From assembly GCA_006383075.2 (NCBI GenBank), contig SMNH02000004.1, positions 186,001-250,000 on the forward strand: a stretch of DNA of 64,000 nucleotides. The letters run 5' to 3'. The translations under genes and the position numbers were made by a program. Shown one piece after another: positions 1,214 through 48,002 of the stretch (positions are counted from its first letter, which is position 1; every line of letters begins with the position of its first letter). A model generated the notes under the pieces. The model was not told the DNA's origin and made no database searches. It saw only the letters and a program-made list of their open reading frames with translations. Origin of the DNA: Kordia sp. TARA_039_SRF (GTDB lineage: Bacteria > Bacteroidota > Bacteroidia > Flavobacteriales > Flavobacteriaceae).

Positions 1214-3481
<2,268 letters not shown>

Positions 3482-3629
3482 ATATTTGTTTTTTAGTGTT
3501 TTGAAAGTCCTGCGAAATTACGAAATATTATGCATTTTTAAAAATCCACAGCATACCTTTATTTTAAGTGAATTATTTTTATCGAATTTTTATTTTTGTT
3601 AGATAAAATTCAAAATTACACATAAAAAA

Positions 3630-3662
3630 AGCTTCAAATTACGAAATTCATAATTTGAAGCT
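3630..3662. terminator. bidirectional intrinsic terminator
   Basis: The arms AGCTTCAAATTA (3630-3641) and TAATTTGAAGCT (3651-3662) pair perfectly. An A-run lies on the left (a T-run on the minus strand) and a T-run on the right. It ends the leftward PPIase-moxR operon ahead of the aconitase gene. The remainder of 3482-3725 is AT-rich and holds the presumed aconitase promoter. Confidence 0.8.
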
Positions 3663-3725
3663 GTGTTTTTTTAGATAGTCGTAAAATTGTAGAATTTTAC
3701 ATGATTTTATTTGAACAGAAAAGTT

Positions 3726-4679
3726 TTAGAATAAACTCTCAATAATCTTTTCAATTGTAATTCCTTCTGCTTCTGCTTTGTAGTTTCGAATAACTCTGTG
3801 CGATAGAATTCCAATGGCAACTGCTTGCACATCTTCAATGTCTGGAGAAAATTTTCCGTTGATAGCCGCATGTGCTTTGGCTGCCAAAATTAGGTTTTGT
3901 GAAGCTCTTGGCCCTGCGCCCCAATCTACATATTGTTTTACGATGTCAATGGCGCTAGCTTCTTTTGGACGTGTTTTAGAAACCAATCGAACGGCGTATT
4001 CTATAACATTGTCAGCTACAGGAATTTTGCGAATGAGTTGCTGAATTTTGATGATTTCTTGTGCCGAAAATAGTGCTTTTACGGAAGTTTCAACATCAGT
4101 CGTTGTTGCTTTAACCACTTGCACTTCTTCGTCAAACGTTGGATAAGTTAAACGAATGGCAAACATAAAACGGTCTAATTGCGCTTCTGGTAACGGATAC
4201 GTTCCTTCTTGCTCAATTGGGTTTTGCGTTGCCAATACAAAGTAAGGTAAATCAAGCTTGTAATGATGTCCCGCAACCGTCACGGCACGTTCTTGCATTG
4301 CTTCTAACAATGCAGCTTGTGTTTTTGGCGGCGTACGGTTGATTTCATCTGCCAAGATAATGTTTGCAAAAATAGGTCCTTTGATGAATTTGAACGTACG
4401 CGATTCATCCAAAATTTCACTTCCTAAGATATCACTCGGCATTAAATCGGGCGTAAATTGAATACGCTTAAAGTTGAGCCCTAACGTTGTTGCAATGGTA
4501 TTAACCATTAATGTTTTTGCCAATCCGGGAACACCGATTAATAACGCATGTCCACCAGAAAATATAGAGAGTAATATTTGATCAATTACTTCTTCCTGAC
4601 CTACAATTATTTTAGCAATTTCATTTTTGAGTTCCTTGTGTTTTTGCACAAGATTTTCAATAGCAGCAACGTCTGACAT
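3726..4679 (-). CDS. moxR: MoxR family AAA+ ATPase
   Basis: This is a chaperone-like AAA+ ATPase of the MoxR subfamily, thought to remodel or activate partner proteins, often ones with VWA domains. In 317 residues it shows Walker A (GVPGLAKT, 49-56), Walker B (IILADEIN, Asp111-Glu112), sensor 1 (LATQNPIEQ) and the family-typical LPEAQLDRFM. It is the last gene of the leftward folding-factor operon, 3 bases after the SurA-like gene. The Bat-type VWA partners usually found beside moxR are absent here; the nearest VWA protein (24508-26544) is 20 kb away. The link to envelope protein folding is inferred from the operon. Confidence 0.93.
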   Translation of the reverse strand: MSDVAAIENLVQKHKELKNEIAKIIVGQEEVIDQILLSIFSGGHALLIGVPGLAKTLMVNTIATTLGLNFKRIQFTPDLMPSDILGSEILDESRTFKFIKGPIFANIILADEINRTPPKTQAALLEAMQERAVTVAGHHYKLDLPYFVLATQNPIEQEGTYPLPEAQLDRFMFAIRLTYPTFDEEVQVVKATTTDVETSVKALFSAQEIIKIQQLIRKIPVADNVIEYAVRLVSKTRPKEASAIDIVKQYVDWGAGPRASQNLILAAKAHAAINGKFSPDIEDVQAVAIGILSHRVIRNYKAEAEGITIEKIIESLF

Positions 4680-43503: not shown

Positions 43504-43911
43504 GTGAAAAAGGAATACCATCTTTCTCAAATTGATGAGATTGCAAAAGCTATTTTAGCAGAGACTAAGCATAAAATTATAGCCTTTCAAGGAGAAATGG
43601 GTGTTGGAAAAACCACACTCATTAAAGTTTTAGCCAAGCAACTTGGTGTCAATGAATTAACTAGCAGTCCAACATTCTCCATTGTGAACGAATATCACAC
43701 ACCAACTGATATTTTATATCATTTTGATTGTTACCGAATGGAAAACGAGGTTGAAGCCTATGATATTGGTATTGAAGATTACTTGTATAGTAACGCTTGG
43801 TGTTTTATTGAATGGCCAGAACGTATTAAAAATTTACTACCAAATGACATCACAAAGATTAACATTAAAAAAATAAACGAAGAATTGCGTTCAATTCATC
43901 TGAAAAATTGA
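43504..43911 (+). CDS. tsaE: tRNA threonylcarbamoyladenosine biosynthesis protein TsaE
   Basis: TsaE is the small ATPase that, with TsaB and TsaD, makes the t6A modification at position 37 of ANN-decoding tRNAs. The 135 residues show Walker A GEMGVGKTT (30-38), SSPTFSIVNEY, and the family hallmark FDCYRMENEVEAYDIGIEDY. The start codon is GTG. It follows porX by 87 bases, a neighbourhood typical of flavobacteria. Confidence 0.95.
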   Translation: MKKEYHLSQIDEIAKAILAETKHKIIAFQGEMGVGKTTLIKVLAKQLGVNELTSSPTFSIVNEYHTPTDILYHFDCYRMENEVEAYDIGIEDYLYSNAWCFIEWPERIKNLLPNDITKINIKKINEELRSIHLKN

Positions 43912-44087
43912 ACACTTTACCGAAAATAAGAGACTATAACCGAAAATTAAACCTAAAAAGACTGACAAATAGCTGACTTTTGTAGTATATTGAATGAAAA
44001 TTCTGATACAGTTCAAAAGTGAAAAATTGATAAAAATACGTAGAAAATAAAATATGATAATTTTCTGAAAATCATTTGGTTATTAGA

Positions 44088-44095
44088 TAAGTTTG
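44088..44095 (+). promoter_or_regulatory. -7 box of unit 1 (TAAGTTTG)
   Basis: Exact TAnnTTTG match 29 bases before the lipoprotein ATG, conserved in all three units. I do not see a convincing -33 TTG at the usual distance. Confidence 0.6.
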
Positions 44096-44124
44096 CTCAT
44101 CGTAAAACTAAAACCTAAAACAAA

Positions 44125-44280
44125 ATGAAATTAAGAAATTATTTATTCGCAGCAGTAGTATTGGCATCAGTAACATTTGTGTCTTGTAACCCAGATAGCA
44201 TTGCAGACGAAGACAACCCATACCAAACAGAGCAAACAATCGATAAAGGAACGTTCAAAAAACTCCCTAGTAACGGGTAG
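44125..44280 (+). CDS. small lipoprotein, unit 1
   Basis: A 51-residue lipoprotein, MKLRNYLFAAVVLASVTFVS followed by CNPDSIADEDNPYQTE. The lipidated cysteine is residue 21; the mature peptide has about 31 residues, acidic first and basic later, ending KLPSNG. Aspartate at +4 after Cys and the acidic tail are compatible with surface export, but this is speculative. All base differences from units 2 and 3 within the CNPD...QTE stretch are silent in this frame, so it is under protein-level selection. Its 3' half overlaps the membrane gene in another frame. The gene is too short for most gene callers. Confidence 0.85.
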   Translation: MKLRNYLFAAVVLASVTFVSCNPDSIADEDNPYQTEQTIDKGTFKKLPSNG

Positions 44281-44746
44281 TATTATTGCTTTTATACTTG
44301 TAATATCTCCATATTTATTTTATTTCTATGAAGGAGTTCCAAGTGATAAAATATGGGAAACAAGATTTTTTACTTATCATAGTAACTACTTTGAAAATGC
44401 TCAAGTAGCAATATGGCATATAATAAATAAATTTGTTCCTCTTTTACTACTAATATTATGGTTTTTCACCTGTAAAAATTGGTGGTATCATGCAATATTA
44501 GTTCCAATTGCAATTCTTTCATTTCAATTACTTAGTGTTCTCAATGATGATATGAAGTATTTTGATGAGTTTGAAATATATTACACAATCCCAATCATGA
44601 TGGTTGTTGTCCCTCTTGTTTATTTGATAAGAATTAAATTATTTGACAAATTAATTCATGGTATAGATTTAAGGAAAATTGAAGCTGAGCTAGAAGAATA
44701 TGAACGTAAAGAAAAAGAGCAGCAAAACGTAACAACAAAAAATTAA
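44177..44746 (+). CDS. multi-span membrane protein, unit 1 (start uncertain)
   Basis: Family unknown to me. The frame runs from a TTG at 44177. The part conserved between units starts near 44255 (NSLVTGSIIAFILVISPYLF). Four hydrophobic segments are seen: SIIAFILVISPYLFYFY, FVPLLLLILWFF, WYHAILVPIAILSFQLL and IPIMMVVVPLVYLIRI. Shared features are TCKNWWYH and a charged C-terminal helix, IEAELEEYERKEKE. Unlike units 2 and 3 there is no in-frame ATG (ACG replaces it), so initiation must use TTG, another codon, or a +1 shift from the lipoprotein frame. Confidence 0.75.
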   Translation: MCLVTQIALQTKTTHTKQSKQSIKERSKNSLVTGSIIAFILVISPYLFYFYEGVPSDKIWETRFFTYHSNYFENAQVAIWHIINKFVPLLLLILWFFTCKNWWYHAILVPIAILSFQLLSVLNDDMKYFDEFEIYYTIPIMMVVVPLVYLIRIKLFDKLIHGIDLRKIEAELEEYERKEKEQQNVTTKN

Positions 44747-44779
44747 AAACAAGAAGTTCATTGACATACATTAATATAC

Positions 44780-44836
44780 TATTTTCTACGTATTTCGTTA
44801 ATTTTAAAGCAAACTAGCAAAAATACGTAGAAAATA
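44780..44836. repeat. long hairpin between units 1 and 2
   Basis: TATTTTCTACGTATTT (44780-44795) and AAATACGTAGAAAATA (44821-44836) are perfect 16-base complements around a 25-base loop. It separates the end of unit 1 from the promoter of unit 2. It lacks a T-run, so it is not a standard terminator. Confidence 0.85.
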
Positions 44837-44874
44837 TATTATGCTTATTTTAAAGGAAGCGTTTGGTTATTCAA

Positions 44875-44882
44875 TAAGTTTG
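44875..44882 (+). promoter_or_regulatory. -7 box of unit 2 (TAAGTTTG)
   Basis: Exact TAnnTTTG match 30 bases before the lipoprotein ATG, in the same position as in units 1 and 3. Confidence 0.6.
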
Positions 44883-44912
44883 GCACATCGTTAAACTAAA
44901 TAATTTATAAAA

Positions 44913-45065
44913 ATGAAAACTAAATTCTACCTTTACCTATTAGCAGCCGTATCATCAATTTTATTTGTATCTTGTAATCCAGATAGCATTGCTGATGAAG
45001 ACAACCCATACCAAACAGAAGAAGGAGTTAGAAAAGACGAAATTACAAGAGGGAACGTTGGTTAG
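44913..45065 (+). CDS. small lipoprotein, unit 2
   Basis: The 50-residue lipoprotein MKTKFYLYLLAAVSSILFVS then CNPDSIADEDNPYQTE has its lipidated cysteine at residue 21. The segment after Cys is identical in protein to the other two units for 16 residues. The tail (EGVRKDEITRGNVG) differs, and the stop falls earlier relative to the membrane gene than in units 1 and 3. Confidence 0.85.
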   Translation: MKTKFYLYLLAAVSSILFVSCNPDSIADEDNPYQTEEGVRKDEITRGNVG

Positions 45066-45552
45066 AAAAAAATTACTGACTGACTCCTTAATAATTTTTT
45101 TGATATTTATATCTCCTTTTCTTTATTACTTGTATGAATATTCTCCTGACGGAGATGTGTGGAAAACTAATTGGTTTACCATAACCAGCAATGGTTATCA
45201 AGACTTATATATATCCTTTTGGATGTATTTAAGTAAAACAATTCCTTTGTTATTGTTAATACTTTGGTTTTTAACTTGTAAACATTGGTGGTACCATATT
45301 ATATTAGTTCCAATTGCAATGTATGCTTTTCAACTAGCCAATGCATTATATAAAAACTCTTTAAAGGTCGATGAAATTGAGATTTATTGGTTAATACCTA
45401 TCATGATGGTAGTAGTTCCGATAGTTTATTTAATAAGAATTAAATTATTTGACAAACTAGTTTTAGGCATTGACCTCAAAAAAATAGAAGCGGAATTAGA
45501 CGAATACGAACGTAAAGAAAAAGAAGACTCCGAAACAGATATTATAAAATAA
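44995..45552 (+). CDS. multi-span membrane protein, unit 2
   Basis: The ATG at 44995 lies inside the lipoprotein gene in the +1 frame (the GATGAA of codons Asp-Glu) and gives 185 residues. A basic N-terminal stretch precedes four hydrophobic segments: LLTDSLIIFLIFISPFLYYL, TIPLLLLILWFL, WYHIILVPIAMYAFQLANAL and IPIMMVVVPIVYLIRI. It shares LTCKHWWYH, RIKLFDKLVLGIDLKKIEAE and the acidic-basic C-terminal helix with its paralogues. Expected in the inner membrane; the function is unknown. Confidence 0.8.
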   Translation: MKTTHTKQKKELEKTKLQEGTLVRKKLLTDSLIIFLIFISPFLYYLYEYSPDGDVWKTNWFTITSNGYQDLYISFWMYLSKTIPLLLLILWFLTCKHWWYHIILVPIAMYAFQLANALYKNSLKVDEIEIYWLIPIMMVVVPIVYLIRIKLFDKLVLGIDLKKIEAELDEYERKEKEDSETDIIK

Positions 45553-45590
45553 TTTGTATTTTTACGAAAATACTTACTTAAAACAAACAA

Positions 45591-45658
45591 AATATAAATT
45601 TTCTACGACTTTTGTTAATTTTAGATTAACTAGCAAAAGTACGTAGAAAATTTATATT
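45591..45658. repeat. long hairpin between units 2 and 3
   Basis: AATATAAATTTTCTACG (45591-45607) pairs perfectly with CGTAGAAAATTTATATT (45642-45658). After one bulged base, ACTTTTG (45608-45614) pairs with CAAAAGT (45634-45640), and TTAA with TTAA inside. The counterpart between units 1 and 2 has different outer and inner bases that also pair, which suggests conservation of structure. Confidence 0.85.
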
Positions 45659-45690
45659 GCTATTTTTCTGATAATTACTTGGTTATTATA

Positions 45691-45698
45691 TAAGTTTG
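45691..45698 (+). promoter_or_regulatory. -7 box of unit 3 (TAAGTTTG)
   Basis: Exact TAnnTTTG match 33 bases before the lipoprotein ATG, in the same context (TTGGTTATTATA upstream, CATCGTTAAACTAAA downstream) as in units 1 and 2. Confidence 0.6.
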
Positions 45699-45731
45699 AC
45701 CCATCGTTAAACTAAATACCTAATTAATCAG

Positions 45732-45887
45732 ATGAAAACTAAATTTTACTTTTATTTACTAGCCGCTTTTTCAACAATATTATTTGTATCTTGTAACCCA
45801 GACAGTATTGCTGATGAAGACAACCCATACCAAACAGAACAAGCAGTCGACAGGAAGACTAAAATCAAAATCCCTTCTAACGAGTAG
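45732..45887 (+). CDS. small lipoprotein, unit 3
   Basis: The 51-residue lipoprotein MKTKFYFYLLAAFSTILFVS then CNPDSIADEDNPYQTE has its lipidated cysteine at 21. The tail AVDRKTKIKIPSNE resembles that of unit 1 (KLPSNG), and the stop codon is at the homologous position. It overlaps the membrane-protein frame by about 74 bases counted from that gene's ATG. Confidence 0.85.
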   Translation: MKTKFYFYLLAAFSTILFVSCNPDSIADEDNPYQTEQAVDRKTKIKIPSNE

Positions 45888-46350
45888 CATAGTAGCTATA
45901 TTTATAGCTATATCTCCTTACATATTTTATTTATATCAGGGTCTTCCAAAAGAAAGTACTTGGGAGACTTCTTTTTTTACTTTTGTTAGCCCTTATCAAG
46001 AAAATGTATATATTTTCGGCTGGTTGTTAATGCAAAAAGTTGTCCCTTTCTTCTTACTCATTCTTTGGTTTTTTACCTGTAGAGATTGGTGGTATCATGT
46101 AATTTTGATACCAATTGCAATGTATTCTTTTCAAATACTCAACGTTATCAATGATGAAGCACAAACTTTTGATGAAGTGGAAATTTATTATGTGATTCCT
46201 ATAATGATGATTATTATTCCGATAGTTTATTTTATCAGAATTAAACTATTCGACAAACATGTATACGGAATTGATTTAGAAAAAATAGATGCTGAACTCG
46301 CTGAATACGAACGAAAAGAAAAAGAATTGCTAGAAGAAAACAATAAGTAG
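45814..46350 (+). CDS. multi-span membrane protein, unit 3
   Basis: An ATG at 45814, inside the lipoprotein gene and in the +1 frame, gives 178 residues. Four hydrophobic segments are seen: SLLTSSIVAIFIAISPYIFYL, VVPFFLLILWFF, WYHVILIPIAMYSFQIL and IPIMMIIIPIVYFIRI. TCRDWWYH and the C-terminal charged helix (KIDAELAEYERKEKEL) match the other units. No catalytic motif is seen. The unit is followed directly by an unrelated alanine dehydrogenase-family gene. Confidence 0.8.
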   Translation: MKTTHTKQNKQSTGRLKSKSLLTSSIVAIFIAISPYIFYLYQGLPKESTWETSFFTFVSPYQENVYIFGWLLMQKVVPFFLLILWFFTCRDWWYHVILIPIAMYSFQILNVINDEAQTFDEVEIYYVIPIMMIIIPIVYFIRIKLFDKHVYGIDLEKIDAELAEYERKEKELLEENNK

Positions 46351-46405
46351 TTTTATAACTTCATTTTTATTTGTAACTTCATGTGTTAACCAATTGTATC
46401 GCTTC

Positions 46406-47605
46406 ATGCCTGAGTCTTTATCACCTTTTACCAAACAACAATTACTTCCGCAAGAAGAAACACTCGAAATTTTAAAGCACAAAAAGGAATTGTTTATCGG
46501 AATTCCTAAAGAAACTTCGTATCAAGAGAAACGGGTTTGTTTAACTCCTGATGCTGTCGCTGCGATTGTGGCGCACGGACATCGCGTACTTATTGAAAGT
46601 TGCGCTGGAAAAGAAGCAAATTTTTCTAATAAAGAATACACAGAAGCTGGCGCAGAAATTACAAACGATACGCAAAAAGTATTCTCCTGCCCTATTGTCC
46701 TAAAAGTTGAACCGCCAACGCTGGACGAGTTACAGCTACTGAATCCGCATACGATTTTAATTTCTGCCTTACAGATAAAAACACGTTCCAAAAAATATTT
46801 TGAAATTTTAGCCAGTAAGCGCATTACCGCACTCGCCTTTGAATATATCCGCGATGAAGACGGTACGTATCCTGCAGTACGCTCATTGAGTGAAATTGCT
46901 GGTACTTCTTCCGTATTAATTGCTTCTGAAATTATGGCTAATGTCAACAGTGGAAATGGCTTAATGCTAGGAAACATCAGTGGTGTGCCGCCAGCAGAAG
47001 TCGTGATTCTCGGTGCTGGAACTGTTGGAGAATTCGCAGCGCGTTCTGCCTTGGGACTTGGAGCTAACATTAAAGTGTTTGACAATTCTATTACGAAATT
47101 GCGTCGTATTCAGGCAAATTTAGGTCGCCCTGTGTACACGTGTACGGTTCAGCCAAAAAACTTATTGAAAGCATTAAAACGTTGCGATGTGTTTATTGGC
47201 GCCGTACGCGGAAAAAACCGATCGCCGATTTTAGTTACAGAAACTATGGTAGAACACATGAAAAAAGGTTCTGTAATTATTGATGTAAGTATTGATATGG
47301 GCGGTTGTGTAGAAACGAGCGAAGTCACTTCTCACGATAAACCTACGTTTGAAAAACACGGTGTCATTCATTATTGCGTCCCAAATATTCCTGCACGATA
47401 CTCTCGAACTGCTTCAGTATCAATTAGTAACATGTTTACACCGTATTTATTGCAAATTGCTGATGATGGCGGATTGGAAAATTCGTTGCGTTTTAATAAA
47501 GGTTTAAAAAATGGTTTGTACTTTTACCACGGAGTTCTGACGAATAAATCGGTAGCCGAATGGTTCGATTTACCGTACAGAGACATTAATCTATTAATTT
47601 TTTAA
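46406..47605 (+). CDS. ald: alanine dehydrogenase family protein
   Basis: A member of the alanine dehydrogenase / pyridine nucleotide transhydrogenase-alpha family, 399 residues from the ATG at 46406 (MPESLSPFTKQQL); an upstream in-frame TTG at 46394 is less likely. The N-terminal part has FIGIPKETSYQEKRV and VLKVEPPT. The Rossmann motif is VVILGAGTVGEFAA. The segment ILISALQIKTR replaces the usual TYLHLA that holds the substrate histidine, so alanine as substrate should be treated with caution. Confidence 0.82.
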   Translation: MPESLSPFTKQQLLPQEETLEILKHKKELFIGIPKETSYQEKRVCLTPDAVAAIVAHGHRVLIESCAGKEANFSNKEYTEAGAEITNDTQKVFSCPIVLKVEPPTLDELQLLNPHTILISALQIKTRSKKYFEILASKRITALAFEYIRDEDGTYPAVRSLSEIAGTSSVLIASEIMANVNSGNGLMLGNISGVPPAEVVILGAGTVGEFAARSALGLGANIKVFDNSITKLRRIQANLGRPVYTCTVQPKNLLKALKRCDVFIGAVRGKNRSPILVTETMVEHMKKGSVIIDVSIDMGGCVETSEVTSHDKPTFEKHGVIHYCVPNIPARYSRTASVSISNMFTPYLLQIADDGGLENSLRFNKGLKNGLYFYHGVLTNKSVAEWFDLPYRDINLLIF

Positions 47606-47609
47606 TTAC

Positions 47610-48002
47610 ATGAATTCTAGTCTTTTAAGACGTTTTGGCTTTTACTTTGGAGGATTAGCCATTGGCTTGATACTATTTGCTTTTTTCGTAAAAGGTCGTG
47701 GTGTAAAATGTGAGTTTGCATATTTACCAAATGCACGAACTTTGAAAAATATTCGTATCAAAGAACGTCGTTTTTCACCTGAAATCCGTCAGTTGATTGA
47801 TAATAACGAAATTGATTCTACCGAAATTTCAAATATTCTTAGAGATGGCGATGTCGATTTTTCTCGTAGCAAAGCCAAAGTAGATGCAGATACCTGTAAA
47901 GTATATATCATTGAAGGAACACTTCGCAATAAAAACATTGAATTAACCGTTCACAATTGCGACAGTACCGCATTGATGAAAACTATTAAAATTGTTGATT
48001 AA
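47610..48002 (+). CDS. membrane-anchored protein of unknown function
   Basis: A 130-residue protein with one N-terminal membrane segment (FGFYFGGLAIGLILFAFFVKG, about 10-30) and a soluble domain. The domain begins CEFAYLPNARTLKNIRIKER, continues FSPEIRQLIDNNEIDSTEIS, and ends TVHNCDSTALMKTIKIVD. It may belong to the DUF4258 group annotated in flavobacteria, but I am not certain. It follows the alanine dehydrogenase-family gene by 4 bases and is probably cotranscribed with it. Confidence 0.8.
   Translation: MNSSLLRRFGFYFGGLAIGLILFAFFVKGRGVKCEFAYLPNARTLKNIRIKERRFSPEIRQLIDNNEIDSTEISNILRDGDVDFSRSKAKVDADTCKVYIIEGTLRNKNIELTVHNCDSTALMKTIKIVD

Follow-up and report, generated by a model that had tools for sequence, protein, structure and literature searches.

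Small lipoprotein and four-span membrane protein genes between tsaE and ald in Kordia and other Flavobacteriaceae vary jointly and may form a pherotype-like locus

Pherotype-type polymorphism of a peptide and its receptor is known from Gram-positive bacteria (agr, ComQXP, ComCD). For the staphylococcal agr locus (agrBDCA), a published account describes a hypervariable region that spans the peptide and the sensor part of the receptor inside a conserved locus (PMC10482373). Here we describe a locus of Kordia sp. TARA_039_SRF, found in a stretch of 64,000 nucleotides (nt) of contig SMNH02000004.1 (positions 186,001 to 250,000), called the window below. In the interval from tsaE to ald (43504-47605), the window carries three pairs of genes in tandem, each pair encoding a small lipoprotein and a protein with four transmembrane helices (4-TM protein). 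Every unit consists of a sigmaA-type -7 promoter element, a lipoprotein gene of 50-51 codons, and a 4-TM open reading frame (ORF) in the +1 frame (Table 1). A preliminary description of this DNA had reported three diverged tandem copies of such a pair, which was confirmed. We consider the chances about even that each pair encodes a ligand and a receptor-like partner, forming a pherotype-like locus that would resemble agr and ComQXP in its working without being homologous to them.

The locus shares with agr a small precursor gene beside a gene for a polytopic membrane receptor, and the existence of allelic groups. It differs in that the agr receptor AgrC is a histidine kinase, whereas the 4-TM proteins of the units have no Pfam domain; an AgrB-like protease and AgrA are absent, the neighbours being tsaE and ald. 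The small proteins carry a Sec/lipoprotein signal and belong to a Gram-negative family, and no sequence relation to agr was found; a thiolactone Cys motif was neither seen in the small proteins nor sought. ComQXPA of Bacillus likewise forms communication groups from linked diversity of peptide and receptor, but its ComQ-like modifying enzyme and its ComP kinase have no counterpart in the locus. The preliminary description had named a known database family as something that would speak against a new pair, and no family for the small protein/4-TM pair was found in the Pfam, NCBIfam, PADLOC, and PDB-sequence libraries. The PG1828 family lipoprotein (NF050142) showed weak similarity in the signal-peptide half (best 22.4 bits); no score reached its curated cut-off (50), and the tail was left unmatched. 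A match to prolipoprotein diacylglyceryl transferase NF000780 (18.2 bits; cut-off 547) was discarded, as were Dicty_CAD and MASE6 matches below cut-off. Nothing on the locus was found in the literature searched, which did not extend to subscription papers and preprints.

A scan of GTDB contigs yielded 62 related loci, all titled Flavobacteriaceae except for four, of which two are labelled Bacteroidia/Bacteroidetes bacterium and one each Flavobacteriales bacterium and Cytophaga sp. In all 62, the 4-TM gene has just upstream of it a short ORF that encodes a signal peptide. In a wider set that includes duplicates, a script found the small ORF in 116 of 121 copies; four of the five missed copies (L028, L032, L065, L092) have one on reading, the fifth being L085, and nine of nine further overlapping copies have it as well. 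No 4-TM gene lacking its small gene, a case that the preliminary description had named as refuting, was encountered in the loci inspected, a set that covers neither double-4TM relatives nor the kinase fusion (both described below). Judged by this co-occurrence, the two genes belong together. The overlap of the two frames, which the preliminary description had included in the plan of the pair, is not a defining feature: only nine of the 62 loci have it (seven in Kordia, L013, and L064), although it is also present in L103-L112 and L116. The remaining 53 keep the genes separate, with a gap of 21-196 nt in 52 loci and of 526 nt in L065.

The two genes were found to change class together in nine Zobellia genomes, each of which has one pair with separate genes. 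Tails were assigned by eye to the classes PSQ (three genomes), TSN (two), NGD (one), and IDKK (three), and the class of the tail agreed with the class of the receptor core, also assigned by eye, in nine of nine. The IDKK cores grouped with support of 100/100, the TSN cores with 93/91, and the NGD core together with four loci of other genera with 99/99, while the PSQ cores were placed among PSQ loci of other genera without forming a supported clade. By their flanks, L160 and L165 (100/99) and L162 and L164 (100/100) are sisters, and the class differs within each of these pairs; L164 and L165 have the same class, contradicting the flank tree. Identity between L160 and L165 was 90% upstream and 87% in the signal peptide, dropped to 35% over the remainder of the small gene, 43% in the gap, and 57% in the core, and returned to 85% after the core and 91% in ald. 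At the residue level, these two proteins of different class share 27 of 30 cytosolic C-terminal residues and only 2 of 9 in loop 2, whereas L164 and L165 share 8 of 9 in loop 2 and only 22 of 58 at the far C-terminus; core and tail therefore track class, and the cytosolic end tracks species. Taken over the alignments, flanks, promoter block, signal peptide, and predicted cytosolic C-terminus follow the species, and tail and predicted TM1-TM4 switch jointly among a few divergent allele classes at one chromosomal site, with sharp edges near the signal cleavage region and behind TM4.

Some allele classes recur in other genera. Across 61 loci with separate genes, a partial Mantel test of tail against core, given tsaE and ald, gave a moderate r=0.27, reached in 0 of 2000 permutations, such tests being liberal for related sequences; the control of tail against ald gave 0.11 (158/2000). 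Loci entered this test if their gap exceeded 50 nt, their core was distinct, tsaE was there, and ald matched over at least 380 amino acids (aa), which excluded L031, L041, L044, L045, L046, L065, and others; by eye, the excluded L044, L046, and L031 resemble the NGD or KGD classes. In 22 loci with four tail types, defined after the data had been seen, cores of the same type were closer than flanks predict in 5000 of 5000 permutations (0/5000 contrary). The classes common to several genera make co-selection of tail and core likelier, without proving it, and the joint pattern in Kordia, Zobellia, and across genera fits the idea of variant recognition raised in the preliminary description.

In Kordia, the same part of each unit is variable. 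All 11 Kordia genomes compared have three units, so that the copy number, which the preliminary description had marked for checking, is not peculiar to the window genome. By porX, tsaE, and ald, the relative closest to this genome among them is K. periserrulae (90% across 3150 columns), to which the flanks showed 79-96% identity in 90-nt windows; the less similar islands are given in Table 1. Between the window and L011, the proportion of synonymous differences (pS) was 0.68-0.78 in unit 1 and 0.69-0.72 in unit 2, compared with 0.46 in porX, 0.29 in tsaE, and 0.44 in ald. Since pS is raised inside the islands, old alleles have been exchanged or kept there, and fast residue change alone does not account for them. 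Core sequences run against the species relationships: that of window unit 1 shares 77% identity with L150 and 42% with the sister genome, and that of unit 2 shares 98% with K. zhangzhouensis and 57% with the sister genome. In a core tree of 33 Kordia receptors, 12 combinations of sister genomes and position were considered; sisterhood was rejected in eight by the approximately unbiased (AU) test (p<0.05), five of which remain after Bonferroni correction for 11 tests, was not rejected in three (p 0.38, 0.07, 0.65), and was recovered as a clade in one.

The region of 150 nt upstream together with the first part of the small gene clustered by position, with full support for unit 1 and weaker support for units 2 and 3. 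The preliminary description had presented the three copies as variants, and a recent origin for these was not upheld: on this clustering they are paralogues of long standing, each with a 5' block specific to its position. Shuffling of units between positions was considered when a first tree placed unit 1 of the window beside unit 2 of K. periserrulae (SH-aLRT 85); it was dropped, as keeping the positions together was not rejected and window unit 1 joined unit 1 of L150 after three genomes had been added.

The motifs ascribed to the 4-TM proteins, namely TC-WWYH, a DE(F/I/V)EIY loop, and a charged C-terminal helix, were found in the window proteins. With an N-in/C-in topology assigned by the positive-inside rule, entropy over 78 receptors was 2.07 and 2.21 bits in the periplasmic loops, 0.25 in the cytosolic loop, and 0.83 in the cytosolic C-terminus; the predicted protein thus has variable loops on the periplasmic side, and its cytosolic loop and C-terminal helix hardly vary. 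An AlphaFold2 model of unit 3 featured four TM helices and a C-terminal helix (mean predicted local distance difference test score, pLDDT, 74.8; predicted template modelling score, pTM, 0.58), and modelling of the longer receptors was poor (pLDDT 61.0, pTM 0.31). The unit 3 model had no PDB fold match below E 4.2, and the 4-TM proteins had no PDB sequence match.

A profile of the 78 receptors (E<=1e-3) matched 277 of 397 sampled Flavobacteriaceae genomes, a count that takes in the double-4TM relatives. In a sample of the phylum, 11 of 395 genomes matched, all of them Flavobacteriaceae; the non-matching genomes include Flavobacteriaceae as well, and many genomes of the large genus g128 of this family are without a hit among the matches listed. 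Within genera, six of ten genomes around G104 and two of two around G108 matched, and a distant 4-TM protein was detected in another family of the same order (G420, E 7e-10).

The small proteins of the window, as described earlier, have 50-51 residues and an invariant CNPDSIADEDNPYQTE in all three copies, and their signal peptides have a lipobox Cys (FVSC). The lipid anchor that this implies is not universal: a lipobox-like Cys was present in 38 of 55 non-Kordia loci, a count that leaves out three Cys located inside the signal peptide, and was missing from 17. In L050-L053, L056-L058, L061, L022-L025, L030, L034, and L049, the Cys is lost and signal peptide and tail are kept, which suggests release or another kind of anchor. 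The mature protein consists of an acidic linker followed by a tail (e.g., GVDKTKI-x) that is short, hydrophilic, and lysine-rich. Tandem repeats of the tail, at least two copies of a motif detected by regular expression, occur in 23 of 91 distinct small proteins, with a maximum of six in L059; some forms escape this expression, among them the three IDKFQKPPKHG units of L021. This Cys-less protein of a Sinomicrobium metagenome-assembled genome (L021:4664-4867) has a tail of three IDKFQKPPKHGLAF-like units.

Base differences among the three window copies, reported as silent in the lipoprotein frame, were confirmed to be so in the core stretch, and the short frame is strongly constrained. Over codons 1-36 in eight Kordia genomes, the codons of invariant residues were themselves invariant in 24/29 cases in unit 1, 24/31 in unit 2, and 22/28 in unit 3, compared with 93/435 in porX, 22/82 in tsaE, and 74/329 in ald; the 5' DNA of the small gene is therefore held beyond the protein level. 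High expression, a hidden start, or an element at the RNA or DNA level may account for this extra constraint.

One gene elsewhere in the window's genome hints at signalling. A LytS-type histidine kinase (L166:3573-4679), located between cdd and a pyruvate dehydrogenase-like gene, begins with the 4-TM domain (47 bits to the profile), followed by PF06580/HATPase. The units thus share a domain with one LytS-type kinase, but lack the His_kinase/HATPase part, which only this separate gene (L004/L166) possesses. Three kinase-size ORFs tried as further fusions had no 4-TM profile match at E<=10, and kinases of 950-1040 aa matched the profile only from query residue 76 or later.

In our reading, the tail would be displayed in the periplasm, or freed from its anchor, and would bind the cognate 4-TM protein from the periplasmic side; this protein would relay its state to the cytosol, with the TC-xWWYH loop and C-terminal helix as the route. 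Signalling would be confined to one group by the class differences, as in the pherotypes of agr and ComQXP, and Kordia would have three parallel channels with one promoter type, the receptor start lying inside the ligand gene. A ligand/receptor reading fits the sites of variation on both partners, their joint switching, the repeated tails, and the kinase fusion. Tentatively, and short of an even chance, the whole could be a self/non-self locus of the family, with lipoprotein peptides that are often tandem in the manner of an alpha-factor precursor, 4-TM receptors, pherotypes common to several genera, and triplicated overlapping frames in Kordia.

Several observations weigh against a ligand and its receptor. 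Lipid anchoring argues against free diffusion of the peptide. Because the genes are adjacent, joint switching is explicable by block exchange alone, and where the genes overlap, the same DNA encodes the tail and the N-terminus of the receptor. Tail and tsaE, given core and ald, were also associated above chance (r=0.14, 61/2000), the tail-core effect itself is moderate, and the tail types of the 22-locus test were set post hoc. Exchange among the three Kordia positions was without support (AU p 0.39, 0.42). The ratio of nonsynonymous to synonymous change, proposed as a check in the preliminary description, did not exceed 1 in the islands (pN/pS up to about 0.58), so that positive selection is unsupported; values above 1 are not expected there, with synonymous sites so near to saturation. 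The pair has no kinase or regulator as a conserved neighbour, no regulator adjoins the kinase fusion, and a second fusion was not found among the 80 genomes searched, leaving one in 80.

The same data could describe a stable two-subunit envelope complex acting within one cell, for which the envelope sensor RcsF/IgaA provides a comparison. The lipoprotein tail would then serve the 4-TM protein as a structural or regulatory subunit, and diversity would be due to drift and occasional block exchange instead of cell-to-cell recognition. The lipid anchor of most non-Kordia loci (38/55), the fixed synteny with housekeeping genes, the single copy in most genera, and the strong purifying selection on the cytosolic parts agree with such a complex. 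The sharp-edged divergence, the elevated pS of the islands, and the classes common to genera exceed what drift would give, and tandem repeats of the tail would be odd in a subunit; we regard this explanation as unlikely, if the most serious of the alternatives.

Beyond ald, loci L097-L102 carry tandem genes of 400-430 aa on the opposite strand (e.g., L099:1613-2836 and 2846-4138, minus). These were taken up as possible histidine-kinase neighbours and ruled out, since each has two 4-TM domains and none of nine tested had a Pfam match. Such double-4TM arrays, present in six loci examined, could be spare immunity genes if the tail were a small antibacterial peptide against which the 4-TM protein gave immunity, and a secreted peptide and a membrane protein do vary in linkage here. 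We judge a toxin-immunity pair improbable nonetheless: the tails are short, hydrophilic, and lysine-rich, the pair occupies one fixed site across a large part of the family, PADLOC gave no match, the most conserved receptor parts are predicted to be cytosolic, and one copy is fused to a kinase. Bacteriocin loci, unlike the tsaE-ald locus, are patchy in distribution. Less probable still is a role of the 4-TM protein as the site where a phage or contact-dependent toxin enters, its periplasmic face diversifying to escape and the lipoprotein serving as shield or chaperone; variable periplasmic loops and allele replacement would follow from it, but by itself it leaves the joint switching of the tail across genera and the repeats unexplained.

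The start of the 4-TM frame had been placed within the lipoprotein gene, in the +1 frame. Frame and overlap stand, but the TTG codons at 44177, 44965, and 45784 are doubtful as starts because they precede the lipobox codon. All 11 Kordia genomes have an internal ATG in units 2 and 3 (window 44995, 45814) and ACG at the corresponding site of unit 1 (window 44207), and a TTG occurs two codons upstream of the ATG/ACG site in 33 of 33 units. In other overlapping genera, 10 of 11 listed copies have an internal ATG; L112 was not resolved by the script, and its ORF shows M before TM1. A +1 frameshift fusing the Kordia membrane frame to the lipoprotein, with no internal start, would suit the missing in-frame ATG of unit 1, but is hardly credible given the ATG codons kept in units 2 and 3 and in other overlapping genera and the separate 4-TM genes elsewhere with starts of their own.

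Upstream of the lipoprotein start codons, TAAGTTTG is found at a distance of 37-41 nt in the three window copies. Flavobacterial sigmaA promoters have a -7 element TAnnTTTG (PMC9723704, PMC6847099), and from this match TAAGTTTG is an ordinary sigmaA -7 element. The preliminary description was thus right that each copy has its own box, but the box is nothing special. Among 89 distinct loci, 81 had TANNTTTG in the 150 nt that precede the small gene, compared with 11% of mononucleotide shuffles. A further upstream box, TACGN(A)GAAAAT-like, was present in 24 aligned Kordia units, one of them with ATAAAAT. Between the units, an inverted repeat TTTTCTACG(TA)/TACGTAGAAAA was seen (window 44782-44834 and 45599-45650); its right arm is the upstream box found before all three units, its left arm occurs only before units 2 and 3, and it may be an operator, a terminator, or an RNA hairpin. 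The order porX/tsaE, small gene, 4-TM gene, ald is widespread, with other genes intervening in some genera. A DUF4258 protein is encoded behind ald (window 47610-48002) and adjoins ald in most related loci too.

Table 1. Positions of the tsaE-ald locus features in the window; island identities are nucleotide identities to K. periserrulae.
Feature	Position	Strand	Details
tsaE, upstream neighbour	43504..43911	+	conserved; annotation and synteny comparison
Upstream box, unit 1	44037..44048	+	TACGTAGAAAAT
-7 promoter element, unit 1	44088..44095	+	TAAGTTTG
Small lipoprotein (putative peptide precursor), unit 1	44125..44280	+	51 aa; tail TIDKGTFKKLPSNG
4-TM protein, unit 1	44201..44746	+	putative start TTG 44201; no in-frame ATG before TM1
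Hypervariable island, unit 1	44245..44604	+	peptide tail to TM4; 48-68%
Upstream box, unit 2	44824..44835	+	TACGTAGAAAAT; inverted partner TTTTCTACGTA at 44782
-7 promoter element, unit 2	44875..44882	+	TAAGTTTG
Small lipoprotein, unit 2	44913..45065	+	50 aa; tail GVRKDEITRGNVG
Hypervariable island, unit 2	44965..45414	+	46-79%
4-TM protein, unit 2	44995..45552	+	internal ATG start
Upstream box, unit 3	45640..45651	+	TACGTAGAAAAT; inverted partner TTTTCTACG at 45599
-7 promoter element, unit 3	45691..45698	+	TAAGTTTG
Small lipoprotein, unit 3	45732..45887	+	51 aa; tail AVDRKTKIKIPSNE
4-TM protein, unit 3	45814..46350	+	internal ATG start
Milder variable stretch, unit 3	45955..46224	+	61-84%
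ald (alanine dehydrogenase/PNT family), downstream neighbour	46394..47605	+	conserved; annotation and synteny comparison

If the pairs do encode ligands and their receptors, this would be a pherotype-like locus in a Gram-negative family that is large and of ecological importance, built from protein families absent from the libraries searched. Zobellia sisters with different classes at a locus that is near-identical in other respects are ready experimental material, and peptide signalling or kin recognition in Flavobacteriaceae would become directly testable.

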